NCBI RefSeq assembly: GCF_036322585.1
Contig: NZ_AP024600.1
Span: 5,642,001-5,706,000, forward strand
From: Luteolibacter sp. LG18
GTDB lineage: Bacteria; Verrucomicrobiota; Verrucomicrobiia; Verrucomicrobiales; Akkermansiaceae
Length of the DNA stretch: 64,000 nt
Direction of reading: 5' to 3'
Shown here: piece by piece, positions 3,877 to 63,980 of the stretch
Numbering within the stretch: the first letter of the stretch is position 1
Layout of the letters: every line of letters begins with the position of its first letter
Made by a program: the position numbers and the translations under genes
The notes under the pieces: generated by a model
The model's database searches: none
Told to the model about the DNA's origin: nothing
What the model saw: the letters and a program-made list of their open reading frames with translations, nothing else

Positions 3877-3892
3877 AGCGGCCCTGCGGGAC

Positions 3893-3927
3893 GAAATTCA
3901 AAATCCTAAATCTAAAATTCTAAACGG
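3893..3927. repeat. AT-rich intergenic repeat, copy 1
   Basis: This AT-rich stretch fills the gap between the convergent BatD-like gene and dinB. On the minus strand it reads CCGTTTAGAATTTTAGATTT and continues TAGGATTTTGAATTT. It closely resembles the spacer at 63942 (CCGTTTAGGATTTTGGATTT, two differences over 20 bases) and shares TTTAGGATTTAG-type units with 62528. The stop codon TAG of dinB lies inside it. Function unknown. Confidence 0.6.
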
Positions 3928-4972
3928 AAGAGTCGCCGAAGAACTCCATCTGGGCGGTGGCGTCCGGGTCTTCGAAACGGAGGGCGACGCCGATCAGGCG
4001 AACCGGCTTTCCCTCTCCCCGCTTCCAAGCCTCGGCGAGGAGTTCCTCGAAGATCTCCTCGTCGATCCGGGGATGAGCCCGTTCGGCGGTGGTGCGGGTG
4101 AAGTCGGAGAACTTCAGTTTCACCACCAGGCTCTTCACCACCCGGTCGGAGTGGTGGCGGGCGAGATCCTCCTTCAGCCCCTCGAGCAGCGCGCGCATCG
4201 GCGGAATCGCCGCCTGGGCGGTGAGCACGTTCTCGGAGAAGGTTTCCTCGGAACCGAGTGACTTGCGGGTGCGGTCGGGCTGCACCACGCGGTCGTCGAT
4301 GCCGCGGCAGAGGTTCCAGAGTTCCAGCCCCCACTTGCCGAACCGGCGGGCGAGTTCGATACGGTCGAATTTCCGAAGGTCGGCGCAGGTTTCCACGCCC
4401 AGCACCGCCAGCTCTTCCCGGCCGCGCTTGCCCACGCCCCACAGCCGCCCAACCGGCAGGGCTGCGACGAAGGCATCGACCTCTTCCGGCGTCACCTCGA
4501 ACTGGCCGTCCGGCTTGTTCCAATCGCTGGCGATCTTCGAGACCATCTTGTTCGGCCCGATCCCGGCGGAGGCGGTGAGGCCGGTTTCCTCGCGGATCTG
4601 GGCGCGGATTTCGCGGGCGATGGCCGCGCCGCCGCTCTGGAGGTGGGAGACGTCGAGGTAGGCCTCGTCGAGCGACAGCGGCTCGATGGCATCGGTGAAA
4701 CGACCGAAGATGGCGCGGATGCGGGCGCTTTCCGCCCGGTAGAGGTCGAACCGGACCGGCACCAGCACGAGTTGGGGGCAGAGCTCCAGCGCCTTGAACA
4801 CCGGCATGGCGGAGCGGCAGCCGAATTTCCGGGCCTCATAGTTCGCGGTGGTGAGGACCCCGCGGCGGCGGCTCCCCCCGACCGCGACCGGCCGACCGCG
4901 CAAGGCCGGGTTCTCCCGGACCTCAATGGCGGCGTAGAAGCAGTCCATGTCGATGTGGATGATTTTCCGCAT
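3920..4972 (-). CDS. dinB: DNA polymerase IV (Y-family translesion polymerase)
   Basis: The 350-residue product matches the usual Pol IV length (about 351). It extends primers past damaged template bases without proofreading. The start at 4972 gives MRKIIHIDMDCFYAAIE, with catalytic Asp at residues 8 and, in the motif SLDEAYLDV, Asp102 and Glu103; these are the expected metal-binding carboxylates. The frame is open 77 codons further upstream, but that extension has no homologous features and overlaps the divergent cyclophilin gene. The gene is divergent from the cyclophilin gene with only 46 bases between starts. No clear LexA box was recognised there, so SOS control cannot be claimed. The last codons run into an AT-rich repeat that supplies the TAG stop. 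Confidence 0.96.
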   Translation of the reverse strand: MRKIIHIDMDCFYAAIEVRENPALRGRPVAVGGSRRRGVLTTANYEARKFGCRSAMPVFKALELCPQLVLVPVRFDLYRAESARIRAIFGRFTDAIEPLSLDEAYLDVSHLQSGGAAIAREIRAQIREETGLTASAGIGPNKMVSKIASDWNKPDGQFEVTPEEVDAFVAALPVGRLWGVGKRGREELAVLGVETCADLRKFDRIELARRFGKWGLELWNLCRGIDDRVVQPDRTRKSLGSEETFSENVLTAQAAIPPMRALLEGLKEDLARHHSDRVVKSLVVKLKFSDFTRTTAERAHPRIDEEIFEELLAEAWKRGEGKPVRLIGVALRFEDPDATAQMEFFGDSSV

Positions 4973-58904: not shown

Positions 58905-59038
58905 GTTGGATCTGTTGGACGGCGAACCCTTGCGCCTTGTGAAACTTTTCACAAAGTGGCTTGCCGGGACGCGGAGCGGCCACTCATAGTTTGGATCGAA
59001 TCTGGCGGGCTACGTTCCCGTCCGGGACCCATCGAGCC

Positions 59039-60796
59039 ATGAGCGAAAACCCTTCTGCCACCGCGGAAAAGAAGCTGCCCAAGGACCTTGCCGCTGAAAA
59101 GGGCATGGTCAACGTCCAGATCGACGGCGTTTGGCACCAGTTTCCCCGGGGAACGCGCATGATCGAGGCCTGTTCCCAGGCGAACATCCACGTCCCGCGC
59201 TACTGCTACCACCCGAAGCTCTCCGCTCCCGGCAACTGCCGCATGTGCCTCGTGCAGATGGGCATGCCCCCCCGCCCCGCCCCCGGCCAAGAGCCGGCGC
59301 GCGATGAGGATGGCTATGAGATCATCGGCTGGATGCCGCGCCCGGTGATCGCCTGCGCGAACACGGTGGGCGAGAACATGGGCATCCGCACCCAGGGCGA
59401 GCTGGTGGAGAAATGCCGCGAGGGGGTGATGGAGTTCCTGCTCATCAACCACCCGCTGGATTGCCCGATCTGCGACCAAGCCGGCGAGTGCCGCCTCCAG
59501 GAATTTTCCGTCGAACACGGCCGCGGTTCGTCCCGGTTCGTGGACATGAAGGTGAAGAAGCCGAAGAACGTGGACATCGGTCCGCGGGTCCGGCTCGACG
59601 ACGAGCGTTGCATCATGTGCAGCCGCTGCATCCGCTTCATGGACGAGGTGGCCGGTGATCCGGTGCTCGGATTCACCCAGCGCGGCACCCACACCACCCT
59701 CACGGTCCATCCGGGCCGCCTGCTGGACAGCAACTACTCGCTGAACACGGTCGACATCTGCCCGGTCGGTGCGCTGACCTCCAATGACTTCCGCTTCCAG
59801 ATGCGTGTCTGGTTCCTGAAGGAAACCAAGTCCATCGACGTCAACTGCGGCACCGGCACCAACATCATCGTCTGGGCCCGCGGCAACAAGGTCCACCGCA
59901 TCACCCCGCGCCGGAACGACGAGGTGAACTCGACCTGGATGCCGGACTCGCACCGCCTGGCCTTCCACGCGCTGGATTCCGACGCCCGCCTGACCGAGCC
60001 GCTGGTGAAGGTCAGCGGACCGCACACGCCGCTGGCGTGGAAGAACGCGCTGGAGATCGCTGCAAACAACCTCAAGACTTTCCAGTCCGGCGAGATCGCC
60101 ATCGTCGCCTCCGGCCGGATGACCAACGAGGAGCTTTTCATGGCCCGCGCACTGGCCGCCGAGATCGGCACCAATGCGCTGGCGATCGTGCCGCGCCACG
60201 GCGAGGCCGACACCCTGCTGGTCGCCGCCGACCGCAACCCGAACACGACCGGCGCGAAGCTGGTGTGGGAAACGGAGGACCCCGCCGCCGCGCTGGCCAG
60301 CATCCGCTACGGCCTCGACAACGGCTCGATCAAGGCGCTCATCGCCCTTGGCGAGGACCTGCTCGGCGACGCCGGGTTCACCCGCGAACAGGTCGGCAAG
60401 GCCACCTTCCTTCTCCAGATGGCCACCCTGGCCAACCCCACCGCCGAACTCGCCACCGTGGTGCTGCCGTCCGCCGGCTTCACCGAGAAGCGCGGCTCGA
60501 TGGTCAATCTCTCCGGCCGTCTCCAGCGCCTCAACCGCGCCGTCGAACCGCCCGCGGGTGCCCGCGACGACTGGGAAATCCTCCGCGACCTCGTCCTCAC
60601 GCTGAGTGGCGAGAAGAACGAGGTTCACATGATCGAGGACGTCTTCAAGGCCATGGCCGAGGCGATTCCCGCGTTCAATGGACTCTCCCTTTCCAAGATC
60701 GGCGACCAAGGCAAACCGGTCGTCGAAACCGGCTACCAAATCCCGCTTCTCGTGAACGAGCGCGCCCGCAAGGCCGCTGGCATCATTAATGGTTAA
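59039..60796 (+). CDS. nuoG: NADH-quinone oxidoreductase subunit G (short form)
   Basis: ATG at 59039 gives 585 residues. The N-terminal [2Fe-2S] domain has CYHPKLSAPGNCRMCLVQ (55-72) and VIACANTV. The His-Cys3 [4Fe-4S] site is HPLDCPICDQAGEC (139-152), and the following cluster CIMCSRCIRFMD with CPVGAL (about 190-245). The C-terminal molybdopterin-like domain is short: typical NuoG has about 780-900 residues. It transfers electrons within the peripheral arm of complex I. It is the first nuo gene in the window, and its stop lies inside an inverted repeat flanking an inserted gene. nuoE/nuoF are not seen upstream. Confidence 0.94.
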   Translation: MSENPSATAEKKLPKDLAAEKGMVNVQIDGVWHQFPRGTRMIEACSQANIHVPRYCYHPKLSAPGNCRMCLVQMGMPPRPAPGQEPARDEDGYEIIGWMPRPVIACANTVGENMGIRTQGELVEKCREGVMEFLLINHPLDCPICDQAGECRLQEFSVEHGRGSSRFVDMKVKKPKNVDIGPRVRLDDERCIMCSRCIRFMDEVAGDPVLGFTQRGTHTTLTVHPGRLLDSNYSLNTVDICPVGALTSNDFRFQMRVWFLKETKSIDVNCGTGTNIIVWARGNKVHRITPRRNDEVNSTWMPDSHRLAFHALDSDARLTEPLVKVSGPHTPLAWKNALEIAANNLKTFQSGEIAIVASGRMTNEELFMARALAAEIGTNALAIVPRHGEADTLLVAADRNPNTTGAKLVWETEDPAAALASIRYGLDNGSIKALIALGEDLLGDAGFTREQVGKATFLLQMATLANPTAELATVVLPSAGFTEKRGSMVNLSGRLQRLNRAVEPPAGARDDWEILRDLVLTLSGEKNEVHMIEDVFKAMAEAIPAFNGLSLSKIGDQGKPVVETGYQIPLLVNERARKAAGIING

Positions 60797-60809
60797 AGGC
60801 TAGAGGTTA
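60792..60809. repeat. Left arm of 18-bp imperfect inverted repeat around four-helix-bundle gene
   Basis: GTTAAAGGCTAGAGGTTA pairs with the reverse complement of the right arm at 61225-61242 with 15 of 18 matches. The arm overlaps the nuoG stop codon (TAA at 60794-60796). Confidence 0.75.
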
Positions 60810-60831
60810 AAAGTTATTGGAAAGAGAAGCG

Positions 60832-61227
60832 ATGGACCACGAATCATTGAGGACATTCGAAGATCTGGAATGCTGGAAAGCATGCCGGGAACTTCGTGTT
60901 TTCGTGGCGAGGACCATTTGCAAAGCCCTCCCGAAGGAAGAGAGCTTCCGACTGGGCGACCAAATTCTACGAGCTGCACGGTCCAGCACAGCCAATATCG
61001 CCGAGGGCTACGGTCGCTTCCACTACCTCGATAATGCGAAGTTTTGCTCCAACGCCCGGGGTTCCTGCTGGGAAGTAGTAGACCACCTCATTACCGCCCA
61101 TGACGAAGGCATCATCGCCACGGACATGCTTGAGCAAGGACGTGCTCTCGCGGCAACGGCCATCGCGCTGCTAAACGGCTACATTTCGTATCTCCGGCGT
61201 GCATCACGGGAAAGAGACACCCAATAA
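60832..61227 (+). CDS. Four-helix-bundle protein (S23/IVS-encoded type) inserted in nuo operon
   Basis: ATG at 60832 gives 131 residues; the TTG-initiated extension from 60817 is less likely since AGAGAAG lies just upstream of ATG. The sequence shows the family pattern FEDLECWKACRELRVFVART, IANEGYGR-like SSTANIAEGYGRFHYLDNAK, FCSNARGSCWEVVDHL and LNGYISYLRR. Relatives are found in 23S rRNA intervening sequences, near diversity-generating retroelements (Avd) and as solitary mobile-like ORFs. Here it separates nuoG from nuoH and is bracketed by an inverted repeat whose right arm includes its stop codon. Lower GC than neighbours supports insertion. Its function is unknown. Confidence 0.88.
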   Translation: MDHESLRTFEDLECWKACRELRVFVARTICKALPKEESFRLGDQILRAARSSTANIAEGYGRFHYLDNAKFCSNARGSCWEVVDHLITAHDEGIIATDMLEQGRALAATAIALLNGYISYLRRASRERDTQ

Positions 61228-61242
61228 CCTCTAACCCATAAC
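61225..61242. repeat. Right arm of 18-bp imperfect inverted repeat
   Basis: TAACCTCTAACCCATAAC is the inverted partner of 60792-60809 (15 of 18 matches). It begins with the TAA stop codon of the four-helix-bundle gene and lies 14 bases before nuoH. Confidence 0.75.
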
Positions 61243-61256
61243 GTCTAACTTTCCCC

Positions 61257-62522
61257 ATGGACCCGCTTCTTCTCACCATCCTCATCACGCTGGCGAAAAT
61301 CATCGGCCTGACGTTCCTCGTCGTGCTGCCGTTGGTGCCGATCTCGGTTTACTTCGAGCGCCGTTTCTCCGCGGTCATCCAGGACCGCGTCGGCCCGAAC
61401 CGGGTTGGCATTCCGCTCAGCCTGATCGGTCTGAAGGACTTCTCGTTCGCCGGTCTGATCCAGCCGATGGCGGACGGCGTGAAGCTGTTCTTGAAAGAGG
61501 ACTTCACCCCGACTCATGTCCGCAAGGCCTTCTACTGGCTGGCTCCGGTGCTGACCGTGGCCCCCTCCCTGATCACGCTGGCCGTGATCCCCTTCGGTTC
61601 CTCCATCACCCTTGGCGGACAGAAGATTGACCTCGCCATCGCCAACCTCGACGTCGGTCCGCTGTTCATCTTTTCGATCGCCTCGCTCTCGGTTTACGGC
61701 ATCACGCTCGCCGGGTGGTCTTCGAACTCGAAGTTCCCGTTCATCGGCGGCGTGCGCTCCACGGCCCAGATGATCTCCTACGAAATCTGCCTCGGCCTCT
61801 CGATCATCCCGGTGCTGCTCTATTTCGGCGACCTGAACCTCGGCAAGATCGTCCAGGAACAGTCCGAGCACGGCTGGCTGCTGCTGCCGTTCTGGGGCCA
61901 TGACGCGGCCCATCCGCTGTCCTCGAAGCTGCTGTTCTGGATCCCGGCTTTCATTTCCTTCCTGATCTTCACGATCTCGATCTTCGCGGAAACCAACCGC
62001 ATGCCCTTCGACCTTCCGGAATGCGAAACCGAACTCGTCGGCGGCTACCACACGGAGTACTCCTCGATGAAGTTCGCGATGTTCTTCATGGGTGAATACG
62101 CCGCGATGGTGGTGGGCTCCGCGCTGATCATTACCCTTTTCTTCGGCGGCTGGTCGGCGGGCCCGCTCGACCCATACATCAACGATTTCTCGTTGTTCGG
62201 CGCCAAGCTCGGCGGACTGCTCCATCTGGCGGTATTCCTGACCAAGCTCATCGTCTTCATCCTGTTCTTCATCCTCGTCCGCTGGACGGTACCCCGCTTC
62301 CGCTACGACCAGCTCATGAAGCTCGGTTGGGTGATCTTCTTCGAAGCCGCGCTGGTGAACGTCTTCCTCGCCGCCCTCGTCATCGCCGCACCTTACCTTT
62401 CCGCCGGGATCATCGTCCTCGGGTTCATCCTGCTGGTGATCCTCTGCGCCGCCATCATCTGGGTGGCGAAGGTGTCCGAGGAGCCATCCAAACCCAACTC
62501 GGGCCTTCTTGGACAGAACTGA
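61257..62522 (+). CDS. nuoH: NADH-quinone oxidoreductase subunit H
   Basis: A 421-residue integral membrane protein with about eight helices. Family signatures are RVGPNRVGIPLSLIGL, LIQPMADGVKLFLKED and the quinone-site region FAETNRMPFDLPECETELVG, followed by EYSSMKFAMFFMGEYAAM. It forms part of the quinone-binding and proton-channel junction of complex I. It is somewhat longer than E. coli NuoH (325), through extra loops such as residues 195-220. It follows the inserted four-helix-bundle gene, with only 29 bases between, and precedes nuoI by 44 bases containing an AT-rich repeat. Confidence 0.96.
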   Translation: MDPLLLTILITLAKIIGLTFLVVLPLVPISVYFERRFSAVIQDRVGPNRVGIPLSLIGLKDFSFAGLIQPMADGVKLFLKEDFTPTHVRKAFYWLAPVLTVAPSLITLAVIPFGSSITLGGQKIDLAIANLDVGPLFIFSIASLSVYGITLAGWSSNSKFPFIGGVRSTAQMISYEICLGLSIIPVLLYFGDLNLGKIVQEQSEHGWLLLPFWGHDAAHPLSSKLLFWIPAFISFLIFTISIFAETNRMPFDLPECETELVGGYHTEYSSMKFAMFFMGEYAAMVVGSALIITLFFGGWSAGPLDPYINDFSLFGAKLGGLLHLAVFLTKLIVFILFFILVRWTVPRFRYDQLMKLGWVIFFEAALVNVFLAALVIAAPYLSAGIIVLGFILLVILCAAIIWVAKVSEEPSKPNSGLLGQN

Positions 62523-63932: not shown

Positions 63933-63941
63933 CTGACTCTT

Positions 63942-63980
63942 CCGTTTAGGATTTTGGATTTAGTGCTTAGTGCTTTCCCC
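63942..63980. repeat. AT-rich intergenic repeat, copy 3
   Basis: The spacer between nuoJ and nuoK begins CCGTTTAGGATTTTGGATTT and contains TAGTGCTTAGTGCTTT. It matches the reverse complement of 3893 with two differences over 20 bases and shares GGATTTAGTGCTT with 62528. The nuoK ATG is two bases beyond it. Confidence 0.6.

Follow-up and report, generated by a model that had tools for sequence, protein, structure and literature searches.

The gap between nuoG and nuoH in the complex I operon of Luteolibacter sp. LG18 holds an S23-type gene lying between two inverted arms built of 7-nt repeats, and this feature probably belongs, as a single copy, to a large class of elements of about 0.45 to 0.5 kb, similar to the intervening sequences (IVSs) of rRNA, that occupy intercistronic gaps of operons. 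Stem-flanked S23 elements have so far been described mainly from rRNA genes. A first-pass annotation of the window (the whole 64,000-nt stretch of DNA analyzed here) had reported a 131-residue S23-type gene bracketed by an 18-bp imperfect inverted repeat and had read it as a mobile IVS-like element or a domesticated regulator of nuoH. Our analysis confirmed the observation, partly supported the interpretation, and greatly extended it. The element and its host genes, in window coordinates, are as follows.

58961..60796, + strand: nuoG, host operon gene 5′ of the element (NCBIfam NuoG, 7.6e-138)
60792..60820, + strand: left arm, a run of degenerate heptamers, four in number: GTTAAAG GCTAGAG GTTAAAA GTTATTG (repeat search, lag-7 test)
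60820..60829, + strand: purine-rich inner arm end GAAAGAGAAG, putative ribosome-binding site of the S23 gene (sequence)
60832..61227, + strand: S23 / 23S_rRNA_IVP four-helix-bundle gene, 131 aa (PF05635, 2.8e-25)
61221..61249, + strand: right arm, complementary heptamers, includes the S23 stop (repeat search, period, lag-7 test)
61257..62522, + strand: nuoH, host operon gene 3′ of the element (NCBIfam NuoH, 1.6e-106)

NuoG and NuoH were the best NCBIfam matches and both passed the strict cutoffs of those models. The S23 gene runs from an ATG at 60832 to a TAA at 61225-61227; as described at first pass, the left arm includes the nuoG stop (60794-60796) and the right arm the S23 gene's own stop. 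The right arm ends 7 nt from the nuoH start. The reported repeat was recovered as the core (60792-60809 / 61225-61242, 18 nt, 15/18 matches or 83%) of a longer pair (60792-60820 / 61221-61249, 29 nt, 76%), whose heptamer construction had been missed. Both arms are heptamer arrays by lag-7 identity (29/44, a value reached by 0 of 20,000 shuffles), the stretch 61219-61249 in the right-arm region forms an array with a 14-nt period, and GAAGAG tails resembling GAAAGAGAAG were present at many other arms.

When the 50 nt alongside were shuffled by mononucleotide, 4 of 5000 shuffles paired as well as the window arms. With nuo orthologues excluded, 8 of 233 foreign right flanks paired equally well with the left flank of the window copy, as did 8 of 233 foreign left flanks with its right flank. 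The window arm score of 23 was lower than the 95% threshold of 25.0 set by the pooled control described below; the window copy, taken alone, is thus weak, and as an isolated inverted repeat it is only moderately unusual. The arm scores of six nuoG-nuoH orthologues were 37 to 52. Folding of the transcript, suggested at first pass as a check, gave no stability in excess of shuffled sequences (z = −0.27). An ordinary small operon gene with an inverted repeat arising by chance would fit the weakness of these arms taken alone, but we consider this scarcely credible because it is contradicted by the window lag-7 test and, as presented below, by the arms and 7-nt period of the surveyed loci, the link between arms and protein, and the coevolution of the arms.

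The window protein matched PF05635 with 89 bits (cutoff, 33.8) and so belongs to that family. The AlphaFold2 model of its 106-aa core (pLDDT, 92) consists of four helices, and Foldseek matched it to 2gsc (TM 0.92, E 1.6e-5) and also to 2rld, both of them four-helix-bundle structures of S23. More distantly, the model resembled the Avd protein of diversity-generating retroelements (DGRs), with matches to 8ub7 (TM 0.83, E 0.06) and 4dwl (TM 0.79, E 0.16). This resemblance, together with the strong sense bias reported below, would suit a retroelement, in which an Avd-like S23 protein cooperates with a reverse transcriptase and the operon transcript serves as the source for spread, thereby accounting for the bias. 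However, the RVT_1 profile had no match in the LG18 genome, the control search having given matches in 3 of 14 known genomes, and we regard this explanation as very improbable.

We then scored the arms of S23 loci at large. Among 37 loci from the LG18 genome and its relatives, 31 arm scores were at or above 26, the 95th percentile in a control of 200 mismatched pairings. When the 80 named loci were considered by themselves (79 were usable), the 95th percentile was reached by 42 and the 99th by 23. The pooled set comprised 242 loci (3 of 245 were dropped for too little flank) from Verrucomicrobiota, Bacteroidota, Chloroflexi, Cloacimonadota and others. Compared with 1210 mismatched, GC-matched pairings, and with somewhat longer flanks scored, inverted arms were above the 95th percentile in 190 of the 242 and above the 99th in 154; the scores of 52 were not above the 95th. 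The loci were mostly best hits, and the 80 were drawn by a search with a nuo-type profile, making the sample nonuniform; since the loci are mutually related and were picked as best hits, these counts do not represent independent draws. Across the 154 loci with strong arms, lag-7 identity was 0.50 in either arm versus 0.306 ± 0.005 after shuffling, with values of 0.46 to 0.47 at lag 14, 0.36 at lag 8, and 0.26 to 0.32 at the remaining lags from 3 to 19. The median left arm measured 33 nt and the median element span 480 nt. Judged by sequence, the anatomy of the S23 element is common across phyla, and the earlier reading of an IVS-like, stem-flanked S23 ORF in mRNA spacing was supported as general among the surveyed loci.

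At least 900 nt was available on each side of 214 of the 242 loci, and both neighbors could be called, as longest ORFs, at 203 of these. The neighbor orientations were ++ at 154 loci, −− at 10, +− at 21 and −+ at 18, i.e., the S23 gene lay sense between codirectional genes 154 times versus 10 times antisense. At sense loci the left arm started a median of 5 nt past the stop of the preceding gene and the right arm ended a median of 11 nt ahead of the next start. The sense bias is compatible either with action at the RNA level or with a need for host transcription. ORF-less hairpins and solo arms exist beside the full elements.

The LG18 genome matched PF05635 at eight places, seven of them above the cutoff, with neighbors named by Pfam and by reading:

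S23 copy between nuoG and nuoH (the window copy)
S23 copy between a class-III aminotransferase gene (read as argD) and a gene of the OTC family
S23 copy between metK and ahcY (ahcY by reading)
S23 copy between nrdB and a gene for an ATP-cone (nrdA-type) protein
S23 copy between MoxR-type ATPase and DUF58 genes
S23 copy between DUF58 and BatA genes
S23 copy 3′ of a branched-chain ABC ATPase gene
S23 copy 3′ of thiC

Five of these copies had strong arms (scores of 46 to 82), each with a different unit; the thiC copy had 9-nt units (by eye), and no repeat units were seen at the copy after the ABC ATPase gene. Two solo arms lie in the window itself:

3891..3932, + strand: solo left-type arm (heptamers, then GGAAGAG), separate from the nuo element (repeat/array scan)
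63937..63975, + strand: solo right-type arm CTCTTCCGTTTAGGATTTTGGATTTAGTGCTTAGTGCTT in the nuoJ-nuoK gap, separate from the nuoG-nuoH element (array scan, genome matches)

The second belongs to another family, its type equaling the arms of the S23 copy L007, and this type had 22 matches in the LG18 genome versus 1 in the reversed control (overlaps counted separately). The 20 inspected loci of the CTCTTCCGTTTAGGATTTTGGATTTAGTGCTTAGTGCTT-type arm lay mostly beside stops and starts, according to crude ORF calls. Arms and hairpins of a TTTTCAG type had 50 matches in the LG18 genome versus 0 in the reversed control. Across seven same-genus genomes (reversed control, 0; overlapping matches again counted separately), this type had 27 to 76 matches in four (G000, 50; G024, 40; G002, 76; G012, 27) and 1 to 3 in three (G032, 1; G007, 2; G031, 3). 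The window's own arm type had 4 matches, itself included, versus 1 in the reversed control, so that dispersed copies of it in the LG18 genome did not clearly exceed the control. A de novo count of heptamer arrays over 464 kb of this genome (16/21 matches) found 1 intergenic and 3 coding arrays at lag 7 and 0 to 3 arrays in total at each of nine other lags; it was set aside as uninformative because the crude coding mask had left 5% of the sequence as intergenic. The GxxExxY gene after nuoK, considered as a second type of cargo, was rejected since no pair of arms flanked it (SW 18); 5′ of that gene there is a separate hairpin without an ORF.

In REP/RAYT systems, short repeats, inverted or solo, are dispersed over intergenic gaps and have a partner that is a coding gene. 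An origin of this kind, in which Y1 (PF01797) transposases of the genome move the arms and the S23 gene is a passenger, would account for solo arms and hairpins dispersed as REPs are, and the LG18 genome has 16 Y1_Tnp matches. However, at the best 8 of these 16 loci the transposase was nowhere flanked by either of the two arm types searched for; 6 of the 8 had long inverted repeats of their own (scores of 94 to 127) and 2 had short ones. Together with the tracking of S23 subfamily by arm type, this makes such an origin improbable.

That tracking emerged when arm similarity was compared with S23 identity over 17,695 pairs of loci with nonhomologous neighbors (190 loci; Spearman correlation, 0.215). 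The corresponding values were 0.001 on average and 0.064 at most over 300 permutations and 0.03 in a flank control using all pairs. In a nearest-protein test of 185 loci, the mean percentile was 0.74 for arms versus 0.60 for the flank control. These comparisons indicate that arm type follows S23 subfamily, also at loci with unrelated neighbors, a link that could reflect common descent of the unit instead of binding.

Within elements, the left and right arms paired better with each other than across species in four orthologous groups, the observed value being reached in 8 (nuoG-nuoH), 0 (nuoI-nuoJ), 19 (metK-ahcY) and 58 (sdhA-sdhB, where the effect was small) of 5000 permutations. Thus, the arms of an element change together. 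A stem in the sense RNA as the sole constraint was rejected by a wobble test, which went in the opposite direction (118 G-U mismatches on the sense strand versus 189 on the antisense strand, P = 6e-5). Because the arms coevolve but show neither sense G-U enrichment nor excess stability, their pairing is either copied or maintained, and RNA as its level of action is our inference.

The history of the window copy bears on whether it is better regarded as an operon-resident regulator, i.e., a domesticated nuo S23 protein that binds its own heptamers and tunes the complex I operon, any mobility being ancient and irrelevant here. Thirteen of 15 nuo-located S23 genes formed one long-stemmed clade (support, 100/100), and the remaining two, both at nuoI-nuoJ, fell in another S23 clade. 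A nuoI-nuoJ copy (L091) is present in L. pohnpeiensis KCTC 22041. Four nuoG-nuoH copies had pN/pS values of 0.14 to 0.18 at pS values of 0.77 to 0.87, a sign of purifying selection that the term "domesticated" in the first-pass annotation fits. S23 identity tracked Nuo identity within junctions (rho = 0.52 and 0.40) and weakly across them (0.19). Close kin of the window S23 lie in another respiratory operon, between sdhA and sdhB of Bacteroidota, where nine loci align over about 1.1 to 1.2 kb including flanks (the gene names were checked in one locus, that of Flavobacterium pectinovorum). The main clade, the low pN/pS, the tracking within junctions, the sdhA-sdhB kin, and the lack of dispersal of the window's arm type speak for a resident regulator. 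Against it, the members of the 13-gene clade are found at nuoG-nuoH, nuoI-nuoJ or nuoK-nuoL depending on the genome, other S23 lineages of the LG18 genome reside in unrelated operons, and most relatives lack the gene at this junction.

This last point came from 30 same-genus nuoG-nuoH loci (LG18 included), 2 of which were unreadable at contig ends. Among the 28 readable sites, 5 were occupied, 1 held a remnant (the C-terminal part of S23 joined directly to the end of nuoG), and 22, with gaps of 16 to 54 nt, had no S23 gene. An arm-like stretch was detected in 10 of these 22 gaps (shuffle test, at most 4/200) and no arm remnant in the other 12 by the same test. Apparent insertions inside nuoG and nuoI of L085 were discarded as runs of N in the assembly. 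The presence-absence comparison suggested at first pass thus found the gene missing from most relatives, and the repeats were kept, and coevolved, among the copies, so that neither outcome named in the annotation as refuting it was observed. We consider a regulatory role of this kind unlikely as the explanation of the feature. For the window copy, the best reading is that of a long-term resident in the nuo operon; it is under purifying selection, belongs to an operon-specific S23 lineage, and has arms with no dispersed relatives above control.

Membership in a class of gap-dwelling elements agrees with what was seen at other sites. One Cloacimonadota genome carried an element at two unrelated sites (91% identical in protein and 86% in DNA), and a third site held a copy at 78%. 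Between G012 and G024, whose flanks are 96 to 97% identical, the nuoI-nuoJ gap held a nuo-type S23 element in the former and an ORF-less TTTTCAG hairpin in the latter, and the nrdB-nrdA gap held S23 elements with different heptamers and extra right arms in tandem. The sdhC-sdhA gap (named by reading; flanks 78 to 90% identical) was occupied in G002 and short and plain in G000. Element boundaries in the compared gaps lay near stop and start codons. Close relatives therefore differ in the occupant of one gap, and replacement through recombination could explain the differences between G012 and G024. The occurrence of one unit at unrelated sites points to mobility of the S23 element family; the mobility proposed at first pass holds at that level. 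The window copy, whose own arm type is not dispersed and which is common to several relatives, did not bear it out.

Each unit consists of four to five heptamers with a purine tail or ribosome-binding site, the S23 gene, and the complementary heptamers, and lies sense between a stop and the following start. A toroid of S23 would recognize its own heptamer array, and pairing of the arms in the operon transcript would make the insert tolerable; RNase III may cut the paired arms, as in rRNA IVSs, which this enzyme excises with no religation. Such elements would spread and be lost between operon gaps, some copies (nuo, sdh and metK-ahcY) having perhaps become long-term residents. The Xanthomonas S23 protein is described in PMC4990558 as a toroidal homopentamer, and its five subunits make a suggestive match to the four to five heptamers of each arm. 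A bolder and more tentative idea, which we think possible, is that the heptamers are a recognition code for the ring-shaped S23 protein, with a subfamily-specific 7-nt unit repeated four to five times per arm to suit the pentamer. The elements would then form a bacteria-wide, nuclease-free selfish system in operon transcripts, with the S23 element as coding partner and hairpins and solo arms as dependents, and rRNA IVSs would be merely the fraction seen first.

The "four helix bundle proteins" of PF05635 owe their name to rRNA insertions and are common proteins without an assigned function; heptamer arms would give them a definable unit and offer a direct test of what S23 binds. Packaging as an element would explain why S23 genes occur in operons that are not related (nuo, sdh, metK-ahcY, nrd, arg, and perhaps cas loci), claims of functional association from gene neighborhood would need correction for such insertions, and it becomes possible to test how stem-flanked inserts are tolerated in the mRNAs of essential operons.

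Among known systems, DGRs share with the element the similar fold of Avd and S23, and PMC10053308 notes a homology of Avd with PF05635, but the LG18 genome, lacking a detectable RVT_1 match, does not contain the reverse transcriptase of a DGR. REPs are GC-rich palindromes, whereas S23 elements have heptamer arrays and an S23 partner without a nuclease. Cyanobacterial STRRs are intergenic 7-nt repeats. Heptamer direct repeats of Beggiatoaceae, Cyanobacteria and Bacteroidetes are likewise intergenic and near start codons (PMC4679880), but that paper does not connect them with S23 genes, its main text containing neither "S23" nor "four helix". Genes of the 23S_rRNA_IVP family (PF05635) in cas loci, e.g., between cmr3 and cmr2, are presented as an associated function in PMC3936711; like the window gene they lie between operon genes, and the passages on them do not mention arms. 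PF05635 also occurs in rRNA insertions of CPR bacteria (PMC11270868). In the openly licensed PMC literature, partially covered and exclusive of preprints, we recognized no paper that connects heptamer arms with S23 genes located elsewhere than in rRNA, an absence that carries little weight.

The closest parallel is the rRNA IVS, and we compared heptamers and purine stretch with that of Coxiella, as the single IVS considered. According to PMC4990558, the Coxiella IVS in 23S helix 45 has AGAAGA, then tandem GACAGAT heptamers whose number varies among strains, then the S23 ORF, with a terminal stem of 28 bp; it is about 430 nt long, cotranscribed with its host gene, and patchily distributed, as the operon elements are. 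The AGACAGA unit at metK-ahcY in relatives of LG18 resembles its GACAGAT. The S23 gene is reported to be decaying in the Coxiella IVS, whereas that of the window element is under purifying selection, and operon elements differ in forming several families per genome, each with its own heptamers. An rRNA IVS sits in an rRNA helix, within 16S or 23S, while the window element sits in the mRNA gap between nuoG and nuoH; because of this location we call it IVS-type and do not file it as an rRNA IVS. It has the terminal inverted repeats (weak in the window copy alone), the purine stretch, and the heptamers adjoining an S23 ORF. With AGAAGA, heptamers, S23 ORF and stem in common, the Coxiella rRNA IVS and the operon elements share one anatomy.

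Inserts of the heptamer-element kind, that is, heptamer arms with or without an S23 gene, were found in at least four gaps of the nuo operon from nuoG onward: nuoG-nuoH, nuoJ-nuoK, nuoK-nuoL, and the position preceding nuoN. The ORF-less hairpins among them, in the LG18 genome, were as follows.

5706340-5706890 (genome coordinates, outside the window), nuoK-nuoL gap: ORF-less hairpin CCACTGATTACACTGATT ... AATCAGTGTAATCAGTGG, with a GxxExxY-type gene (PF13366) 3' of it
5710305 (genome coordinate), immediately 5' of nuoN: ORF-less heptamer hairpin (L306), judged by eye

The arms themselves showed a strand asymmetry. Across the 154 strong-arm loci, left arms were richer in A where the partner implied G than vice versa (left arm versus partner-implied base; A/G mismatches, 135; G/A mismatches, 81). 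At the nrdB-nrdA loci L066, L345, and L062, inspection by eye revealed two to three tandem right arms 3' of the S23 gene, which look as if arms had been added one by one.

The Y1_Tnp transposase (PF01797) of the rival REP/RAYT reading had 16 matches in the same genome, and long GC-rich inverted REP-like structures bracketed six of the eight loci examined (L389 to L396, the best 8 of the 16).

PF05635 genes are also reported in cas loci, for example, in cmr3-cmr2 of a Pleurocapsa (PMC3936711); these genes may be heptamer-armed S23 insertions instead of carrying CRISPR functions.
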